From positions 1 through 64,000 of the forward strand of contig CASDQW010000046.1 in assembly GCA_949282965.1 (NCBI GenBank): a stretch of DNA of 64,000 bases, written 5' to 3'. The position numbers were made by a program, and so were the translations under genes. This document shows positions 35,925-42,935 of this stretch, one piece after another. The notes below the pieces were generated by a model. That model was not told the DNA's origin. It was given only the letters and a program-made list of their open reading frames with translations, and did not search any database. Each line of letters opens with the position of its first letter. Positions within the stretch are counted from its first letter, which is position 1. Source of the stretch: an uncultured Lentisphaeria bacterium (GTDB lineage Bacteria > Verrucomicrobiota > Lentisphaeria > Victivallales > Victivallaceae).

Positions 35925-36413
35925 ATGGACCGCTCGTTATTCACCGCGAAATTCAAACGGGATTACGTCGCCGCCTCGGCGGTGGTGATTTTCTTTCTGA
36001 TCGTGGTTTCGGAAATTACGCTGGCGGTCGGCATTCCCACCTACCTGCTCCGCTCCGACATCTGGGCGCTGCAGATCAAACGCCAGCAGCTGCTAACCAG
36101 TTTCGACACCCTGCGCCGGACCTGCAATGAAGCCCAGATCAAGGACACCGCCGCCGATGAGGAAAACAAGATCGTACTGTGGTCCCTGAATCTGATGGCC
36201 AATTATCTGCGTCTGCATCGACAAACCATTGCCGCCGATGAAATCGCGGAAATTCAAAAAGATATTACCGATCTGCGCCTGATCGCCGGCAAGGCGAGAC
36301 AGGGGAAAAGCGTCAACCAGGAAATGGAACTCAATCCGCAGCCGTTTCTCAATGCCCTCACCCGGCAACTGGCAAACGGTTCCGCGAAACCAGGCAACCA
36401 TGAAAGCAAATAA
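35925..36413 (+). CDS. Membrane-anchored hypothetical protein
   Basis: The 162-residue protein has one N-terminal transmembrane helix (AASAVVIFFLIVVSEITLAV) and a helical, probably coiled-coil, periplasmic part (about 45-130; ALQIKRQQLLTSFDTLRRTC, EIAEIQKDITDLRLIAGKA). No family recognised. Its stop overlaps the start of the heptose kinase gene by 14 bases, so it belongs to the envelope operon and may serve LPS or cell-wall assembly. Confidence 0.75.
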   Translation: MDRSLFTAKFKRDYVAASAVVIFFLIVVSEITLAVGIPTYLLRSDIWALQIKRQQLLTSFDTLRRTCNEAQIKDTAADEENKIVLWSLNLMANYLRLHRQTIAADEIAEIQKDITDLRLIAGKARQGKSVNQEMELNPQPFLNALTRQLANGSAKPGNHESK

Positions 36414-37401
36414 ACTGATTCCAATCATCGACCGGTTCCGGGAAAAACGCATCGCCGTCATCGGAGACCTGATGCTCGATGTCTATCTGTGGGGACGCGC
36501 CACGCGGATTTCCCCGGAAGCCCCGGTTCCGGTCGTCTCCATCGACCGGACCAGCAGCTGCCTCGGCGGCGCCGCCAACGTCATGCGCAATCTGGTCACC
36601 CTGGGCGGCTCCGCATTGGCTTTCGGCATGATCGGCGACGACGCGGACGGCCGGGAACTCTGCCGGCAGCTGGCCGAATACGGCATCAATCCGGAATCGG
36701 TCTGCGTGGATCCAATGCGTCAAACCACCCACAAACAGCGGGTCATCGCCGGAACCCAGCAGCTGCTCCGGGTGGATCACGAAGACGCCTCCCCCGCTCC
36801 CGCGCGGTTGCGGGAAGCCATTACGGAAAAAGTGCTGGCTCTGATCGAAGCGGGAGAAGTTGACGCGGTCATTTTCGAAGACTACGCCAAAGGCCTGCTG
36901 TCCGACGACATGCTTGCCGCCATTGTGCCCGCCGCCGCCCGGCGCGGCATCATCACCGCGCTGGACCCGAAACCCGGCAATCTGTCCCCGGTCCGGGGCT
37001 TGACTGTCATCAAACCGAACCGTCAGGAAGCCGTCGCCATGGCCGCGCTGCTGAACCATTCCGGACGAGAACCGGCGACGGAACTGGACCGCGTGGCAAA
37101 CCGGCTCCAGCAGCAATGGGGACCGGAATACCTGCTGATTTCCCTGGCCGCGGAAGGCATGGCGCTGTACGGGCGAAAGGGGACGAAAACCGTGATTCCG
37201 ACCCGGGCGCGGGAAGTGTTCGACGTTTCGGGCGCGGGAGACACGGTCGTGGCGGCGTTCACCCTGGCCCTGGCTGCGGGCGCCACGCCGACGGAAGCAG
37301 CTGAAATCGGCAATTATGCCGCCGGCATCGTCGTCGGCAAAGTCGGCACCGTACCTGTTTCCGCCGACGAAGTGAAAAAAGAACTCAACCGGGAGAACTG
37401 A
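36400..37401 (+). CDS. rfaE1: D-glycero-beta-D-manno-heptose-7-phosphate kinase
   Basis: The 333-residue PfkB-family kinase makes heptose 1,7-bisphosphate for the LPS inner core. Signatures: VIGDLMLDVYLWGRATRISPEAPVPVV (in part), CLGGAANVMRNL, DPKPGNLSPVRGLTVIKPN and DVSGAGDTVVAAFTLAL with the catalytic Asp. Only the kinase half of E. coli HldE is present; the ADP-transfer half must be encoded elsewhere. The start lies inside the preceding gene with AGG 5 bases upstream. kdsB follows after 3 bases. Confidence 0.95.
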   Translation: MKANKLIPIIDRFREKRIAVIGDLMLDVYLWGRATRISPEAPVPVVSIDRTSSCLGGAANVMRNLVTLGGSALAFGMIGDDADGRELCRQLAEYGINPESVCVDPMRQTTHKQRVIAGTQQLLRVDHEDASPAPARLREAITEKVLALIEAGEVDAVIFEDYAKGLLSDDMLAAIVPAAARRGIITALDPKPGNLSPVRGLTVIKPNRQEAVAMAALLNHSGREPATELDRVANRLQQQWGPEYLLISLAAEGMALYGRKGTKTVIPTRAREVFDVSGAGDTVVAAFTLALAAGATPTEAAEIGNYAAGIVVGKVGTVPVSADEVKKELNREN

Positions 37402-37404
37402 CCC

Positions 37405-38136
37405 ATGGATCAAGTCGTCATCGCCATTCCCGCCCGTTACGGGAGCACCCGCTTTCCCGGCAAACCGCTGGCGCTTCTCCGCGGCAAGCCGATGATTCGT
37501 CACGTATATGAAAAGGCCGCCGCATCCACCGCCGATCTCGTCATCGTCGCGACCGACGATGAACGCATCCGCGACGCGGTGGAAGCGTTCGGCGGGAAAG
37601 CGGTCATGACCCGCGCCGACCACCCTTCCGGCAGCGACCGGATCCGCGAAGCCGTTTCCGGGCTGGATTGCGACATCAACATCAATGTGCAGGGAGATGA
37701 ACCGCTGATCCCGACTTCCGTCATCGACGAATTGATCAACCTGATGAAAAATCATCCGGAGTATGAAATGGCCACCGTGGCGGTCCCCGCCGATGCCGAC
37801 GCCCTGCATGACCCCAACCGTCCCAAGGTGGTTTTCGGTGCGACCGGTGCGGCGCTCTATTTCAGCCGTTCTCTGATTCCCTTCCGGCGCGAAGGCGGCG
37901 AAGAAACCACGGTATACGCCCACTGGGGCATTTACGCCTACCGCCGCGCCGCGCTGGAAAAGTTCGTGCAACTCCCCCCCGGACGCCTCGAAATGTGCGA
38001 AAAACTCGAACAGCTCCGGGCTCTGGAGAACGGCATCGGCATCCAGGTGCTGGTTTCCCACCTGACCAGTATCGGCATCGATACGCCCGAAGATCTGGCA
38101 CGGGCGGAACAACGGCTGCAGGAGGTCGGATTATGA
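37405..38136 (+). CDS. kdsB: CMP-KDO synthetase
   Basis: Activates KDO with CTP to give CMP-KDO for lipid A glycosylation. The 243-residue enzyme starts VVIAIPARYGSTRFPGKPLA, the nucleotide-binding loop. VQGDEPLI carries the metal-binding Asp, and HWGIYAYRRAAL is typical. Its TGA overlaps the ATG of kdsA (ATGA), so translation is coupled. Confidence 0.97.
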   Translation: MDQVVIAIPARYGSTRFPGKPLALLRGKPMIRHVYEKAAASTADLVIVATDDERIRDAVEAFGGKAVMTRADHPSGSDRIREAVSGLDCDININVQGDEPLIPTSVIDELINLMKNHPEYEMATVAVPADADALHDPNRPKVVFGATGAALYFSRSLIPFRREGGEETTVYAHWGIYAYRRAALEKFVQLPPGRLEMCEKLEQLRALENGIGIQVLVSHLTSIGIDTPEDLARAEQRLQEVGL

Positions 38137-38945
38137 ACAGTGTCACCATCGGCAATTCCGTCGTCATCGGCGACGGCCGTCCGGTCCTGATCGGCGGGCC
38201 CTGCATGGCGGAAAGTCTGGAACTCTGTCTGGAATGCGCCGAATACCTGAGCGCCCTGTGCCGGGAACTCAAGGTCGGTTATATTTTCAAAGCCTCCTAC
38301 GACAAGGCGAACCGCACCAGCGGCAACTCCCGCCGCGGTCCCGGCCTGACCGCCGGACTGGCCATGCTGGCGGAGGTCAAACAACGGTTCGGCGTCCCCG
38401 TCGTCACCGATGTACATGAATCCGTGGATGTCCCGCGGGTGGCGGAAGTGGTCGATCTGCTCCAGATTCCGGCTTTTCTCTGCCGCCAGACCGACCTGCT
38501 CGTCGCCGCGGCAAAATCCGGGAAACCGGTCAACATCAAAAAAGGCCAGTTCATGGCTCCCGAAGACATGCGCGGCGCCGTGGAAAAAATCCGCCAGGCC
38601 GGCAACCATCAGATTCTGCTGACAGAGCGCGGCAGCACCTTCGGTTATCACAACCTGGTGGTTGATTTCCGCTCGCTGCCGATCATGCGGAGATTTGACG
38701 TACCGGTGGTGTTCGACGCCACCCATTCCGTGCAGCTCCCCGGCGGACTCGGCGGCGCGTCCGGCGGCAACCGGGAATTCGTCCGCCCGCTGGCCCGGGC
38801 CGCCGCGGCGGTGGGCATCGACGCGCTGTTCGCCGAAGTGCACCCCCGACCGGACCAGGCCTGGTCGGACGGGCCCAATTCCCTTTCGTTCGAAGACGTC
38901 CGCGAAGTGCTCGCCGAGGTCCTCGCCATTGCCAAACTTTCATAA
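38133..38945 (+). CDS. kdsA: KDO-8-phosphate synthase
   Basis: Condenses arabinose 5-phosphate and phosphoenolpyruvate. The 270-residue TIM barrel has IGGPCMAES, FKASYDKANRTS, RGPGLTAGLAML, VVTDVHES, QIPAFLCRQTDLL, NIKKGQFMAPEDM, LTERGSTFGYHNLVVDFRSL (in part) and FDATHSVQLPGG. NCMAES-like Cys in GPCMA suggests the metal-dependent class II form, but this is only a tentative reading. Overlaps kdsB. Confidence 0.97.
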   Translation: MNSVTIGNSVVIGDGRPVLIGGPCMAESLELCLECAEYLSALCRELKVGYIFKASYDKANRTSGNSRRGPGLTAGLAMLAEVKQRFGVPVVTDVHESVDVPRVAEVVDLLQIPAFLCRQTDLLVAAAKSGKPVNIKKGQFMAPEDMRGAVEKIRQAGNHQILLTERGSTFGYHNLVVDFRSLPIMRRFDVPVVFDATHSVQLPGGLGGASGGNREFVRPLARAAAAVGIDALFAEVHPRPDQAWSDGPNSLSFEDVREVLAEVLAIAKLS

Positions 38946-38964: not shown

Positions 38965-41550
38965 ATGCCGTTTCAATTTTTCCGTTCATGGTTTCCGATG
39001 TTTCTGCTGCTGGCACCGGCTGTTCTTTTGCTGCTGACTCCGGCAACCGCCAACGCCAATTCCCTCAACGAACTGCGCGGCTTGAAAACGCGGGAATCCC
39101 GTTTCCCGGTTTACCACAAGAACCGCCTGCAATTGATGATCTACAGCGCCGAGGCCGAACGTCAGGGGGACCTCATCATCACCACCGGCCCGGTCATGGA
39201 CATCATCCGCCGCAACGCCGACATCGATCTGATCGACAACACTCGAAAAACCGTCATCTACCAATTGAACGCCCCTCTTGCCGACATTCTGGCATTCTGG
39301 GCGCAGCGTCTGTACAGCGAAGGCGTCATCAGCAGCACCCGGGCCGACATCAACCAGGAAAGCCAGCAGGCGGCGGGCGGCGAACCGGTCTTTTTCCGGT
39401 CCCCGCTGCTGGATCTGGACGGAGTGGGCTTTGACGCTGATTATTCCCGGCGGACGCTTTCGGTGCGGAAAAACGTGCGCATCGTCCTGCGCACCGCCGC
39501 CAGCAACCCGGAAAATCTCCTGAAAAGCGGCAAAATCCCCGAAAAATACGAGTTTATCAGTGCCTATGCCGACTCTCTCTACATCGATTTCAACAAGGGC
39601 GAAATCATCCTGCGTGGTCATGTCAAAGTTGACGAGGAACGGGCGGTCATCACCTGCGACCGGCTGCTGATCTATCTGGACCGGAATGACCGGAACACCG
39701 AACCGACCGACGCGGATCCCATCTCCGCTTCCGGCGTCGAAGGCATCTCCAAGGTCATCTGCGAAGGCCATGTCGTGATCGACCGCAAAACCGCTCCCGA
39801 GGTGGCAGTCACGGAGCCGCAGCAGCGCGCCACCGCCGACCGGGTGGAATACCAGCTCAAATCCGGGCTCATCACGCTGACCGGGCTGCCGGACAATCCG
39901 CCGGCCCTGCACCGCGGCAAGGACACCCTCAGCGGCGAAACCATCGAAATCCGCCGCAATTCGGAACAAATGTTCATCCGGAAAAACTGCCGGCTGGTCT
40001 TCCACCGGGAGGATGCGGATCAACACACCGCCAAACGCACCGATCTTCGTTCCGATGCGATGGATATGGACTATCGCCGGAATTCCGCGGTCTTCACCGG
40101 CAACGTTGCGGTGGAAGACCCCGATATGCAGCTCACCTGCCGCCGGATGAACGTTACATTCCGCTCGACCGATCCCGGCGCGGCCGCCGCGGCTCCCGCC
40201 GCCACACCCGCCGCCGAAACCACGCTGATGCCCGCAGGTATCGATGCCGGCGGGAAACGGGAACTCGCAGAAATCGTCTGCCATGACAACGTCCGGGTCG
40301 TCCGCCGGGGTACTGCGCCGGAAGCCGGAGAACGGGCGGAGGCCGCCCAGGCCGTACTGGATTACGAAAACCGGAAGGTCACCCTTTCCGGTGCGCATCC
40401 CCGGCTGGTACGGGGCAATGACTCGCTGACCGGCGAGCAGCTGATTATCTGGCTCAATGACGAACGGCTGAGTTCACCCGGAGACAGCCGGATCATCCTC
40501 TGTTCCGCCCCGGCCCCGGGTCAGGCCGCCGTTCAGACGGTGATCACCTCTGATTCCAGCGACCTGAACTACGGGGGCAATCTCCTGACGTTCAAGGGGA
40601 ATGTAAAAGTGCGCGATCCCCGTATGACGCTGGACTGCGACGAAATGAAAATTCATTTGAAAAATGCCCCCGGCGAAAAAAACGCCGCGCCCGCCGCCCC
40701 AGCCGCCGACAGCAGTACGCTCGGCCTCGGCACCGGCAATTCCGGCAGCAAACTGCTGGACCGGATCGTCTGCACCGGCAAGGTTCACGCCGTGGAAAAA
40801 CGCATGAAACTGGACTGCGACGTGCTGACTTTGCATTTCCAGCAGGCCTCCGACGAAACGCCCGCGCCCGGTGCCCTGCAGTCCGGCAAAACTCAGCTGG
40901 TCCGGATCGACAGTGAAGGCCATGTCCGGCTGGTAAGCAATTCCGACGCTGTCGCTCAGGCGAAAACCGATGCGGAACAGAACGCGACCACCACCGACCC
41001 GATCGCCGGATCACTCCTGCAGGGAACGGGCGGGGTCACCACGCTGACCGCCGACCGCGGCCAGGTCGACCTGCTTAAAAACATTTCGGAATTCCACGGC
41101 AAAGTCCGAGTGGAGGAACCCCGGGCAACGCTGGACTGCGATTCGCTTTACCTCCACGCCCGCACCGTTACGCCGGGGGCTGCCCCTGCGGCGGCACCGC
41201 TGGAAGACATCGACCGCGATCCCTTCGCCACCACGGCGACCGACGTGCCGAACACCATCGGTATCGGCGACAACCGGGAATTGACGGACGTGATTGCTCA
41301 GCACCACGTAACCATTGTACGCAAACTGCCGTCCGGCATCCAGCGCGCCATCGGCGACCGGGCACATTACACTGTGGCCGACCGCACCGTGACCCTGACC
41401 GGAACGCCGCAGGAGCTGCCGATTCTGGAGGATCCCGCACAGGGACGCATGAAAGGGAAACGCATCCGGGTCGACCTTGCCAGCGAACGGGCCACCATTG
41501 ATGAACAGGTGTCGCTGGAGGTGAAAAACCTGAATTCACTTCAACTCTGA
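38965..41550 (+). CDS. LptC-like/multi-OstA (LptA-type) fusion protein
   Basis: The 861-residue exported protein lies between kdsA and lptB. It has a signal peptide (FLLLAPAVLLLLTPATANA). An N-terminal part (about 30-180) resembles LptC with DGVGFDADYSRRTLSVRKNVRI. A chain of OstA/LptA-like beta units follows, each with a phrase such as TCDRLLIYL (about 230), LTCRRMNVTF (about 392), LDCDEMKIHL (about 556), LDCDVLTLHF (about 617) and LDCDSLYLHA (about 722), alternating with hydrophobic GNVxV strands and Ala/Pro linkers. LptA is normally about 180 aa, so this may form a long LPS bridge by itself. The fusion reading is inference. Confidence 0.8.
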   Translation: MPFQFFRSWFPMFLLLAPAVLLLLTPATANANSLNELRGLKTRESRFPVYHKNRLQLMIYSAEAERQGDLIITTGPVMDIIRRNADIDLIDNTRKTVIYQLNAPLADILAFWAQRLYSEGVISSTRADINQESQQAAGGEPVFFRSPLLDLDGVGFDADYSRRTLSVRKNVRIVLRTAASNPENLLKSGKIPEKYEFISAYADSLYIDFNKGEIILRGHVKVDEERAVITCDRLLIYLDRNDRNTEPTDADPISASGVEGISKVICEGHVVIDRKTAPEVAVTEPQQRATADRVEYQLKSGLITLTGLPDNPPALHRGKDTLSGETIEIRRNSEQMFIRKNCRLVFHREDADQHTAKRTDLRSDAMDMDYRRNSAVFTGNVAVEDPDMQLTCRRMNVTFRSTDPGAAAAAPAATPAAETTLMPAGIDAGGKRELAEIVCHDNVRVVRRGTAPEAGERAEAAQAVLDYENRKVTLSGAHPRLVRGNDSLTGEQLIIWLNDERLSSPGDSRIILCSAPAPGQAAVQTVITSDSSDLNYGGNLLTFKGNVKVRDPRMTLDCDEMKIHLKNAPGEKNAAPAAPAADSSTLGLGTGNSGSKLLDRIVCTGKVHAVEKRMKLDCDVLTLHFQQASDETPAPGALQSGKTQLVRIDSEGHVRLVSNSDAVAQAKTDAEQNATTTDPIAGSLLQGTGGVTTLTADRGQVDLLKNISEFHGKVRVEEPRATLDCDSLYLHARTVTPGAAPAAAPLEDIDRDPFATTATDVPNTIGIGDNRELTDVIAQHHVTIVRKLPSGIQRAIGDRAHYTVADRTVTLTGTPQELPILEDPAQGRMKGKRIRVDLASERATIDEQVSLEVKNLNSLQL

Positions 41551-41611: not shown

Positions 41612-41676
41612 ATCTCCGGACAAAGGAAATGTTTGACTTTCCCGGCGGCGCGTCCGCCGGAAACTATAGAGGCAAG

Positions 41677-42417
41677 ATGTCGGAAACCAATCACGAGACG
41701 CTGGTCCAGGCCTCCCATCTGGTGAAAACCTATCACGGGCGGCGGGTCGTCAACGATGTATCGCTCCACGTACGCGCCGGAGAAGTGGTCGGACTGCTCG
41801 GACCGAACGGCGCGGGAAAGACTACCAGTTTTTACATGGTTATGGGCCTGATCCGGCCTGATTCCGGTTCGGTGACATTCCGCGGCGTGGATATTACGCA
41901 CATGCCGATGTACCGGCGGGCCCGGATGGGCATGGGCTATCTGGCGCAGGAACCGTCGATCTTCCGCAAATTGACGGTGGAGGAGAACATCATGGCCATT
42001 CTCGAAACGCTGGCCATCTCCCGCGCCGAACGCCGCCAGCGCCTCAAGGAGCTGCTGGACGAGCTGGAATTAACCCGCCTGGCCAAACAGAAGGCCATGA
42101 CGCTCTCCGGCGGCGAACGGCGGCGGCTGGAAATCACCCGGGCCCTGGTGACCAATCCGCTGTTCATCATGCTGGACGAACCGTTCAGCGGCGTGGACCC
42201 GCTGGCGGTCTACGACGTGCAGCAGATCATTCTGCAGCTGAAGCAGCGCAACCTCGGCATCCTCATTACCGACCACAATGTTCGGGAAACGCTTTCGGTG
42301 GTGGATCGGGCTTACCTGATGTGTCAGGGACAGGTTCTGCTGGAGGGCGATCAGGATTTTCTGGTCAATGACGAACGGGCCCGGGAAATCTATCTCGGTC
42401 CGCAGTTCACCATGTAA
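41677..42417 (+). CDS. lptB: LPS export ABC transporter ATPase LptB
   Basis: The 246-residue ATPase powers LPS extraction from the inner membrane. Walker A is GLLGPNGAGKTTSFYM, the Q-loop YLAQEPSIFRKLTVEENI, the signature LSGGERRRLEITRAL, Walker B IMLDEPFSGVDP and the switch His in ITDHNVRETL. The phrase DITHMPMYRRARMGMGYL is characteristic of LptB. The ATG at 41677 has AGAGG 4 bases upstream; an earlier in-frame ATG at 41629 sits too close to its ribosome site. hpf follows. Confidence 0.95.
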   Translation: MSETNHETLVQASHLVKTYHGRRVVNDVSLHVRAGEVVGLLGPNGAGKTTSFYMVMGLIRPDSGSVTFRGVDITHMPMYRRARMGMGYLAQEPSIFRKLTVEENIMAILETLAISRAERRQRLKELLDELELTRLAKQKAMTLSGGERRRLEITRALVTNPLFIMLDEPFSGVDPLAVYDVQQIILQLKQRNLGILITDHNVRETLSVVDRAYLMCQGQVLLEGDQDFLVNDERAREIYLGPQFTM

Positions 42418-42530
42418 AAAGTTTGAAAATGGCCGGAACCGTTCTGCGAGGAGAGGACGGCCGCCCGGCAAAGGCCGTTTCGGCCGCTCGGCCGGAACGC
42501 CATGGCAACCATAACAGGGAGGCGCATCTT

Positions 42531-42866
42531 ATGCAACTCACAATCACCGGTCGTCATTTCGACATTACCGACAACCTGAGAAAAGCCGTCGAGGATAAAC
42601 TGCTCGCCGCCTTTGAAGGCAAGTCGCTGAAAATCATCGCCGCGTCCGCGGTTCTCGCCGTCGATAAAAACCGCTGCCGGGCCGATTTCGTCGTCAATTA
42701 CAAAGGACATGACGCGGCGGCCGCCGCCGAAGGCTATGACATGTACAAGGTCATCGATGAAGCCATCGCGAAAATCGACGTGCAGCTGAATAAATTTCTG
42801 GACAAGGTCCAGACCCATCAGGCGACGCCGCTGCGCGACGTGACCGCCCCTCAGACCACCGAATGA
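42531..42866 (+). CDS. hpf: Ribosome hibernation-promoting factor (short HPF/RaiA-like)
   Basis: The 111-residue protein binds stationary-phase ribosomes. MQLTITGRHFDITDNLRKAVEDKL and the conserved DMYKVIDEAIAKIDVQLNKF helix identify the S30AE domain. There is no long-form C-terminal dimerisation domain. GGGAGG lies 8 bases before the ATG. The lptB-hpf order resembles the lptB-rpoN-hpf arrangement of proteobacteria, without rpoN. Confidence 0.92.
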   Translation: MQLTITGRHFDITDNLRKAVEDKLLAAFEGKSLKIIAASAVLAVDKNRCRADFVVNYKGHDAAAAAEGYDMYKVIDEAIAKIDVQLNKFLDKVQTHQATPLRDVTAPQTTE

Positions 42867-42899
42867 TACCGCTCATCATCCGGTAAAACGATAACCACG

Positions 42900-42935
42900 G
42901 GGAAAAACCTTTTGAAGAAAAGGTTTTTCCCTTTT
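42900..42935 (+). terminator. Strong terminator of the envelope operon
   Basis: A perfect 14-bp stem (42900-42913 with 42918-42931) with a GAAG loop is followed by TTTT. Confidence 0.85.

Follow-up and report, generated by a model that had tools for sequence, protein, structure and literature searches.

The gene at 38965-41550 (+) of the window, by which we mean the whole 64,000-nucleotide stretch of Lentisphaeria DNA analyzed, encodes in one polypeptide an LptC domain followed by four LptA/LptD-N units, the third of which is irregular. We consider it likely that this 861-residue chain is a periplasmic LPS conduit made in one piece, a covalent Lpt bridge in which the number of units is fixed. 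This reading is based upon the content and order of the domains, the location of the gene in a block with lptB and KDO genes, the presence in the genome of lptF, lptG, and an lptD candidate, the orthology of the gene to separate lptC and lptA genes, and the finding of no free LptA or LptC.

Genomic context of the fused gene

The fused gene is found in a block with the order rfaE-kdsB-kdsA-[fused gene]-lptB-hpf. The rfaE-, kdsB-, and kdsA-type genes upstream all function in synthesis of the LPS core (KDO/heptose), and the gene that directly follows the chain is lptB based on its match to NCBIfam LPS_export_lptB, in agreement with the original prediction.

36400..37401, + strand: rfaE/hldE-type PfkB sugar kinase (Pfam PfkB, 1e-37), found in the block of most relatives; start not fixed, the ORF opening at 36352
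37405..38136, + strand: kdsB, CMP-KDO synthetase (Pfam CTP_transf_3, 4e-57)
38109..38945, + strand: kdsA, KDO-8-P synthase (Pfam DAHP_synth_1, 1e-68)
41629..42417, + strand: lptB, ATPase of the Lpt transporter (NCBIfam LPS_export_lptB, 368 bits, cutoff 240); likely start 41677
42528..42866, + strand: gene that closes the block and keeps its place after lptB in relatives, which we take to be hpf/raiA-like
42899..42932, + strand: terminator-like hairpin of 15 pairs followed by a T run, by far the longest stem in a hairpin scan whose total matches were not above those of shuffles

A membrane-type ORF of 162 aa (window 35925-36413) lies upstream of rfaE and is conserved across the order; a Pfam scan of this ORF gave no match.

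Domain composition of the fused protein

The region 38965-41550 (+) is a single ORF of 861 aa with no in-frame stop codons, which confirms the reading frame of the exported protein that had been proposed; its N-terminal signal peptide is predicted from sequence. The Pfam LptD_N profile (the LptA domain, PF03968) matched the chain over four stretches with 130.8 bits (cutoff 20.4, E 3e-38), and the chain barely passed the NCBIfam LptA profile TIGR03002 (72.2 bits against a cutoff of 71.7). For LptC, PF06835 scored 37.3 bits against the whole protein (cutoff 21), with the best stretch at residues 122-174; TIGR04409 scored 52.3 bits against 38, yet its best stretch falls in unit 2. When PF06835 alone was used in a six-frame search of the genome, scores did not reach the cutoff. 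We also used order-specific HMMs that were trained only on separate lptC and lptA genes from other families of the order, and these resolve the chain into the following parts.

39100..39492, + strand: LptC domain, residues 46-176 (order-specific LptC HMM, 107.9 bits)
39568..39987, + strand: LptA unit 1, residues 202-341 (order-specific LptA HMM, 98.2 bits; PF03968, 44.5 bits)
40039..40485, + strand: LptA unit 2, residues 359-507 (order-specific LptA HMM, 104.0 bits; PF03968, 39.7 bits)
40537..40989, + strand: LptA unit 3, irregular, with a first half (525-613) and an extra half-repeat (604-675) (LptA HMM, 52.7 and 10.1 bits)
41038..41511, + strand: LptA unit 4, residues 692-849 (order-specific LptA HMM, 55.3 bits; structural match to LptA)
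38965..39057, + strand: predicted signal peptide, residues 1-31, ANA/N site, read from sequence; the hydrophobic stretch and small-x-small site are also found in relatives

The original prediction of four to five LptA-like units is thereby narrowed to four by the order-specific HMMs, the fifth being only the extra half-repeat within unit 3. The five Cys-centered strands on which that count had drawn are all real, although the second reads TCRRM rather than TCD: TCDRLLIYL (C231), TCRRMNVTF (C392), DCDEMKIHL (C558), DCDVLTLHF (C618), and DCDSLYLHA (C725) map in turn to units 1, 2, and 3, the extra half-repeat, and unit 4. There is a fifth strand because unit 3 is enlarged by the half-repeat. The alternating GNVxV strands were likewise found, as G(N/H/K)VxV, all along the chain. 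Judged by sequence, the LptA and LptC profile matches and the Cys strands are far above chance.

The N-terminus of the LptC part is hydrophobic and is followed by a small-x-small site, and by eye the separate LptC genes of the order are alike in this respect; the LptC part seems to carry a cleavable signal peptide in place of a membrane anchor. The LptC head also contains a helical insertion with a conserved FW (window 39250-39330, residues ~96-122), which is present in the window's family, f2, f4, f5, and f7, and absent from the aligned f3 and f8 rows.

LptA units of the order carry a conserved pair of Cys residues, at alignment column 35 (96/111) and column 77 (89/112), with both present together in 84 units. 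In the window the pair is found at 39655-39762 (C231, C266) and at the corresponding positions of units 2 and 3, and the two residues lie close together on the two strands of a predicted hairpin that flanks a variable loop. The pair may possibly act as a disulfide staple; a search of the window's own genome for DsbA (PF01323) found none.

Structure models and continuity of the groove

AlphaFold was run on the full chain with an alignment of four sequences (three close relatives, from two close genomes), and gave a model with a mean pLDDT of 51 and a pTM of 0.44. Units 1 and 2, the first half of unit 3, and unit 4 are the better-modeled parts; the LptC head and residues 566-692 have a pLDDT below 50 and are not interpretable. 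Structures were matched with Foldseek and VIA-align. Model residues 681-855 (unit 4) matched E. coli LptA (2r1a_C) with a Z of 16.9 and an rmsd of 2.0 over 128 residues, and residues 356-567, which span the junction of units 2 and 3, matched the N-domain of LptD with a Z of 16.2 and an rmsd of 3.0 over 171 residues. The model also matched LptC (Z 14.4); that unit 4 or unit 2 is a second LptC was considered and rejected, as the shared fold explains the match. A second AlphaFold model, of units 3-4 with units 1-2 supplied as alignment rows, reached a modest pTM of 0.58, and its structural matches once more included LptA and LptD.

In the low-depth model of the full chain the succession of strands is unbroken over the junctions between units 1 and 2 (E335-349/E356-369) and between units 2 and 3 (E508-513/E524-529). 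The continuous groove that had been proposed thus has partial support, from the strand succession at these two junctions and from the structural match that extends across one of them; the LptC head and a portion of unit 3 are not reliably modeled. A beta-jelly-roll groove continuous from end to end is a prediction, which this weak model supports in part. Since unit 3 is without a normal second half, the groove could be interrupted there, and the chain might then export LPS without a single continuous groove, with unit 3 serving as a spacer or docking module, with LPS passed between separate grooves, or with several chains assembling further. Consistent with such an arrangement, unit 3 consists of one LptA half and a half-repeat with no full second half, this region is poorly modeled in both AlphaFold models, and in E. 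coli a stable LptA oligomer is reportedly not strictly essential (PMC5575297). Yet unit 3 has the strands and the Cys motif of the other units and is kept across the window's family, and in the model the strands pass straight from unit 2 into it, so that we regard an interrupted path as unlikely.

The junctions also bear upon whether the chain is a precursor that is cut after export into ordinary LptC and LptA proteins. Ala/Pro-rich stretches are present in the chain, for example at 403-425 and 566-590, but they sit within units, at a loop where single LptA proteins also vary. The junctions 1-2 and 2-3 are short, measuring about 17 residues when delimited by the profiles and 6-10 when counted from strand to strand in the model, and a polyprotein would have no evident advantage given that sister lineages have separate genes. 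Processing of this kind is therefore very improbable, and we favor a bridge that stays in one piece.

The corresponding locus in related genomes

We examined the same slot in 41 genomes of the order, 25 from the window's family and 16 from seven other families. The kdsA-[ ]-lptB slot was matched in 25/25 genomes of the family. The gene is split between contigs in three of these (G001, G002, and G004), and the intact members have a single long ORF of 574-1065 aa with about 3-5 units. Most members have four units in about 780-900 aa; G019, G015, and G021 have about three units (574-630 aa), and G020 has five (1065 aa). The irregular unit 3 is common to most members of the family by HMM. The window comes from a draft genome of 127 contigs, but a merging of neighboring genes by assembly or gene calling is refuted by the recurrence of the architecture across the family's sampled genomes, a single-contig one included, and by the absence of in-frame stop codons.

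In 15 of the 16 genomes from the seven other families, lptC (157-272 aa) stands in the slot as a gene of its own, followed in 13 of these 15 by a one-unit lptA (198-286 aa). The fused gene of the slot is orthologous to these separate lptC and lptA genes. An LptC-like head joined to a chain of LptA units, as originally proposed, is thus supported by sequence profiles, by synteny, and by the single-gene relatives. In G025 the separate lptC is followed by a two-unit LptA of 405 aa (L046), and in G035 by two tandem lptA genes (L056). The two G035 genes (L056:30-1737) are separate and diverged; their layout is possibly an intermediate toward fusion. The exception among the 16 is G028 (f5), which has a fusion of 929 aa. 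This fusion (L049:3115-5901) also has a Pfam Tae4 match of 38.7 bits over two stretches (best 702-766), which is perhaps spurious.

A wider search of the class found single proteins of about 890-970 aa that combine LptC with three LptA units, in three genomes of family f4, genus g38. These fused genomes (L086, L087, and L088) have an extra single lptA after the fusion and before lptB, which could serve as a chain extender or end cap. In two other genomes of genus g38, G115 and G093, lptC and lptA are unfused. In a more distant family of the phylum, G137 has a protein of 727 aa with LptC and three units that adjoins lptB. In another distant family, G135, G160, and G166 have proteins of 627-665 aa with a like architecture, and a neighboring lptB was identified in G135 alone; we read the head of these proteins as LptC-like, and the order-specific LptC HMM gave it no score.

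Origins of the fusions

Trees of the individual units were made with FastTree. All g38 units included, from fused and single proteins, form one clade with 0.999 support, which points to a g38 fusion that is clearly independent of that in the window's family, a second and separate origin. Within the window's family, units from different genera group according to their place in the chain, units 1 and 4 most distinctly, so that the tandem array appears to predate the radiation of the family. The units of G028 fall, with modest support, among single LptA proteins from other families, which favors a separate origin for the G028 fusion as well. Deeper branches of the tree are weak, and the tree-based claims of independence concern the g38 and G028 fusions. 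A further reading, which we consider less likely than not, is that fusion into covalent LptC-(LptA)n bridges happened several times in the phylum, with the unit number acting as a genetic ruler matched to the width of the periplasm. With repeated fusion and unit numbers of about three to five, the relation of bridge length to periplasm width becomes testable.

The remainder of the Lpt system

The window's own genome is a 2.81-Mb draft in 127 contigs, 86.6% complete. LptF and LptG are encoded elsewhere in it, at C109 and C7. The LptD candidate is a protein of 904 aa on C31 (L084:4472-7186) with an LptA-like N-region that scores weakly. A fragment in the genome matched LptD_2 (27.9 bits against a cutoff of 22.5); the 904-aa candidate scanned whole gave no PF19838 match, and thus the LptD assignment is based on the fragment match, the size, and the N-region. 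A search of the genome with Pfam LptD (PF04453) gave nothing. LptB, LptF, LptG, and a candidate LptD are thus encoded in one genome with the fused chain.

Separate lptA and lptC genes elsewhere had been named in the original prediction as evidence that would count against it, and none were found in the window's own genome or in near-complete relatives. PF03968 had no matches outside the fused frame in the own genome, in the single-contig G012, or in G020 and G009 (99% complete). An LptC profile of 13 rows found one LptC locus per genome in 9/9 genomes tested, this being the head of the long chain in fused genomes. The head of the chain was its sole match in the own genome, with a score that is inflated because the profile includes the window's own head. 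The 86.6% completeness counts against the absence of free LptA and LptC from the own genome.

A proposed covalent bridge

In the mechanism we propose, the N-terminal LptC domain, docked on LptB2FG, would take up LPS at the inner membrane. Four LptA beta-jelly-roll units arranged head to tail would carry a hydrophobic groove over the periplasm, and the last would contact the LptA-like N-domain of LptD. LptB2FG would push LPS along the fixed bridge, and LPS would leave through LptD. We infer the unbroken groove, the docking partners, the flow of LPS, and the presence of one chain per bridge. Joined in this way, the LptC and LptA parts would give a bridge whose number of links is set by the gene itself. 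Taking ~4 nm per LptA and the ~15 nm modeled for LptC-LptA-LptD of E. coli with one LptA (PMC10863985), a four-unit bridge would have a length of about 27 nm. That a natural protein combines LptC with four LptA units, and that our searches turned up no free LptA, speaks for a permanent bridge rather than a shuttle. For structural studies, the chain is a specimen whose stoichiometry is fixed.

Comparison with known systems

In textbook bacteria the LPS bridge is assembled from separate small proteins. The E. coli Lpt system shares with the fused chain its domains, their order from inner to outer membrane, and an adjacent lptB, and the folds match LptA, LptC, and LptD. It differs in that E. coli LptA is a separate protein of one domain, whereas the fused chain unites LptC with a set number of LptA units, several of them, in a single polypeptide. 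LptA was not found in its usual form, small, soluble, and of one domain, four units being joined to LptC in 861 aa. The fused chain is thus an Lpt variant, passing the LptA and LptC sequence tests and departing from the one-domain LptA. The copy number of LptA in the E. coli bridge has been stated to be unknown (PMC8727689, PMC10863985).

The two-unit LptA of G025 and the tandem lptA genes of G035 resemble the fused chain in that LptA units are duplicated in the same slot, and differ from it in that LptC remains a separate gene. Multi-unit OstA-type proteins occur in other phyla such as Bacteroidota, and if these also carry LptC the fused chain is less novel. We found no description of an LptC-LptA fusion in the open-licence literature, which is not proof of absence.

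LetAB has been described as one polypeptide between the inner and outer membranes, in contrast to the small interacting proteins of Lpt (PMC8727689). The fused chain is like LetAB, an MCE tunnel, in this one respect, that a single polypeptide bridges the membranes. It is unlike LetAB in its domains: a Pfam scan of the chain for MCE and TamB-type domains found none, and only LptD_N and LptC matched, whereas LetAB is built of MCE domains. The fused chain would place Lpt among the single-polypeptide bridges.
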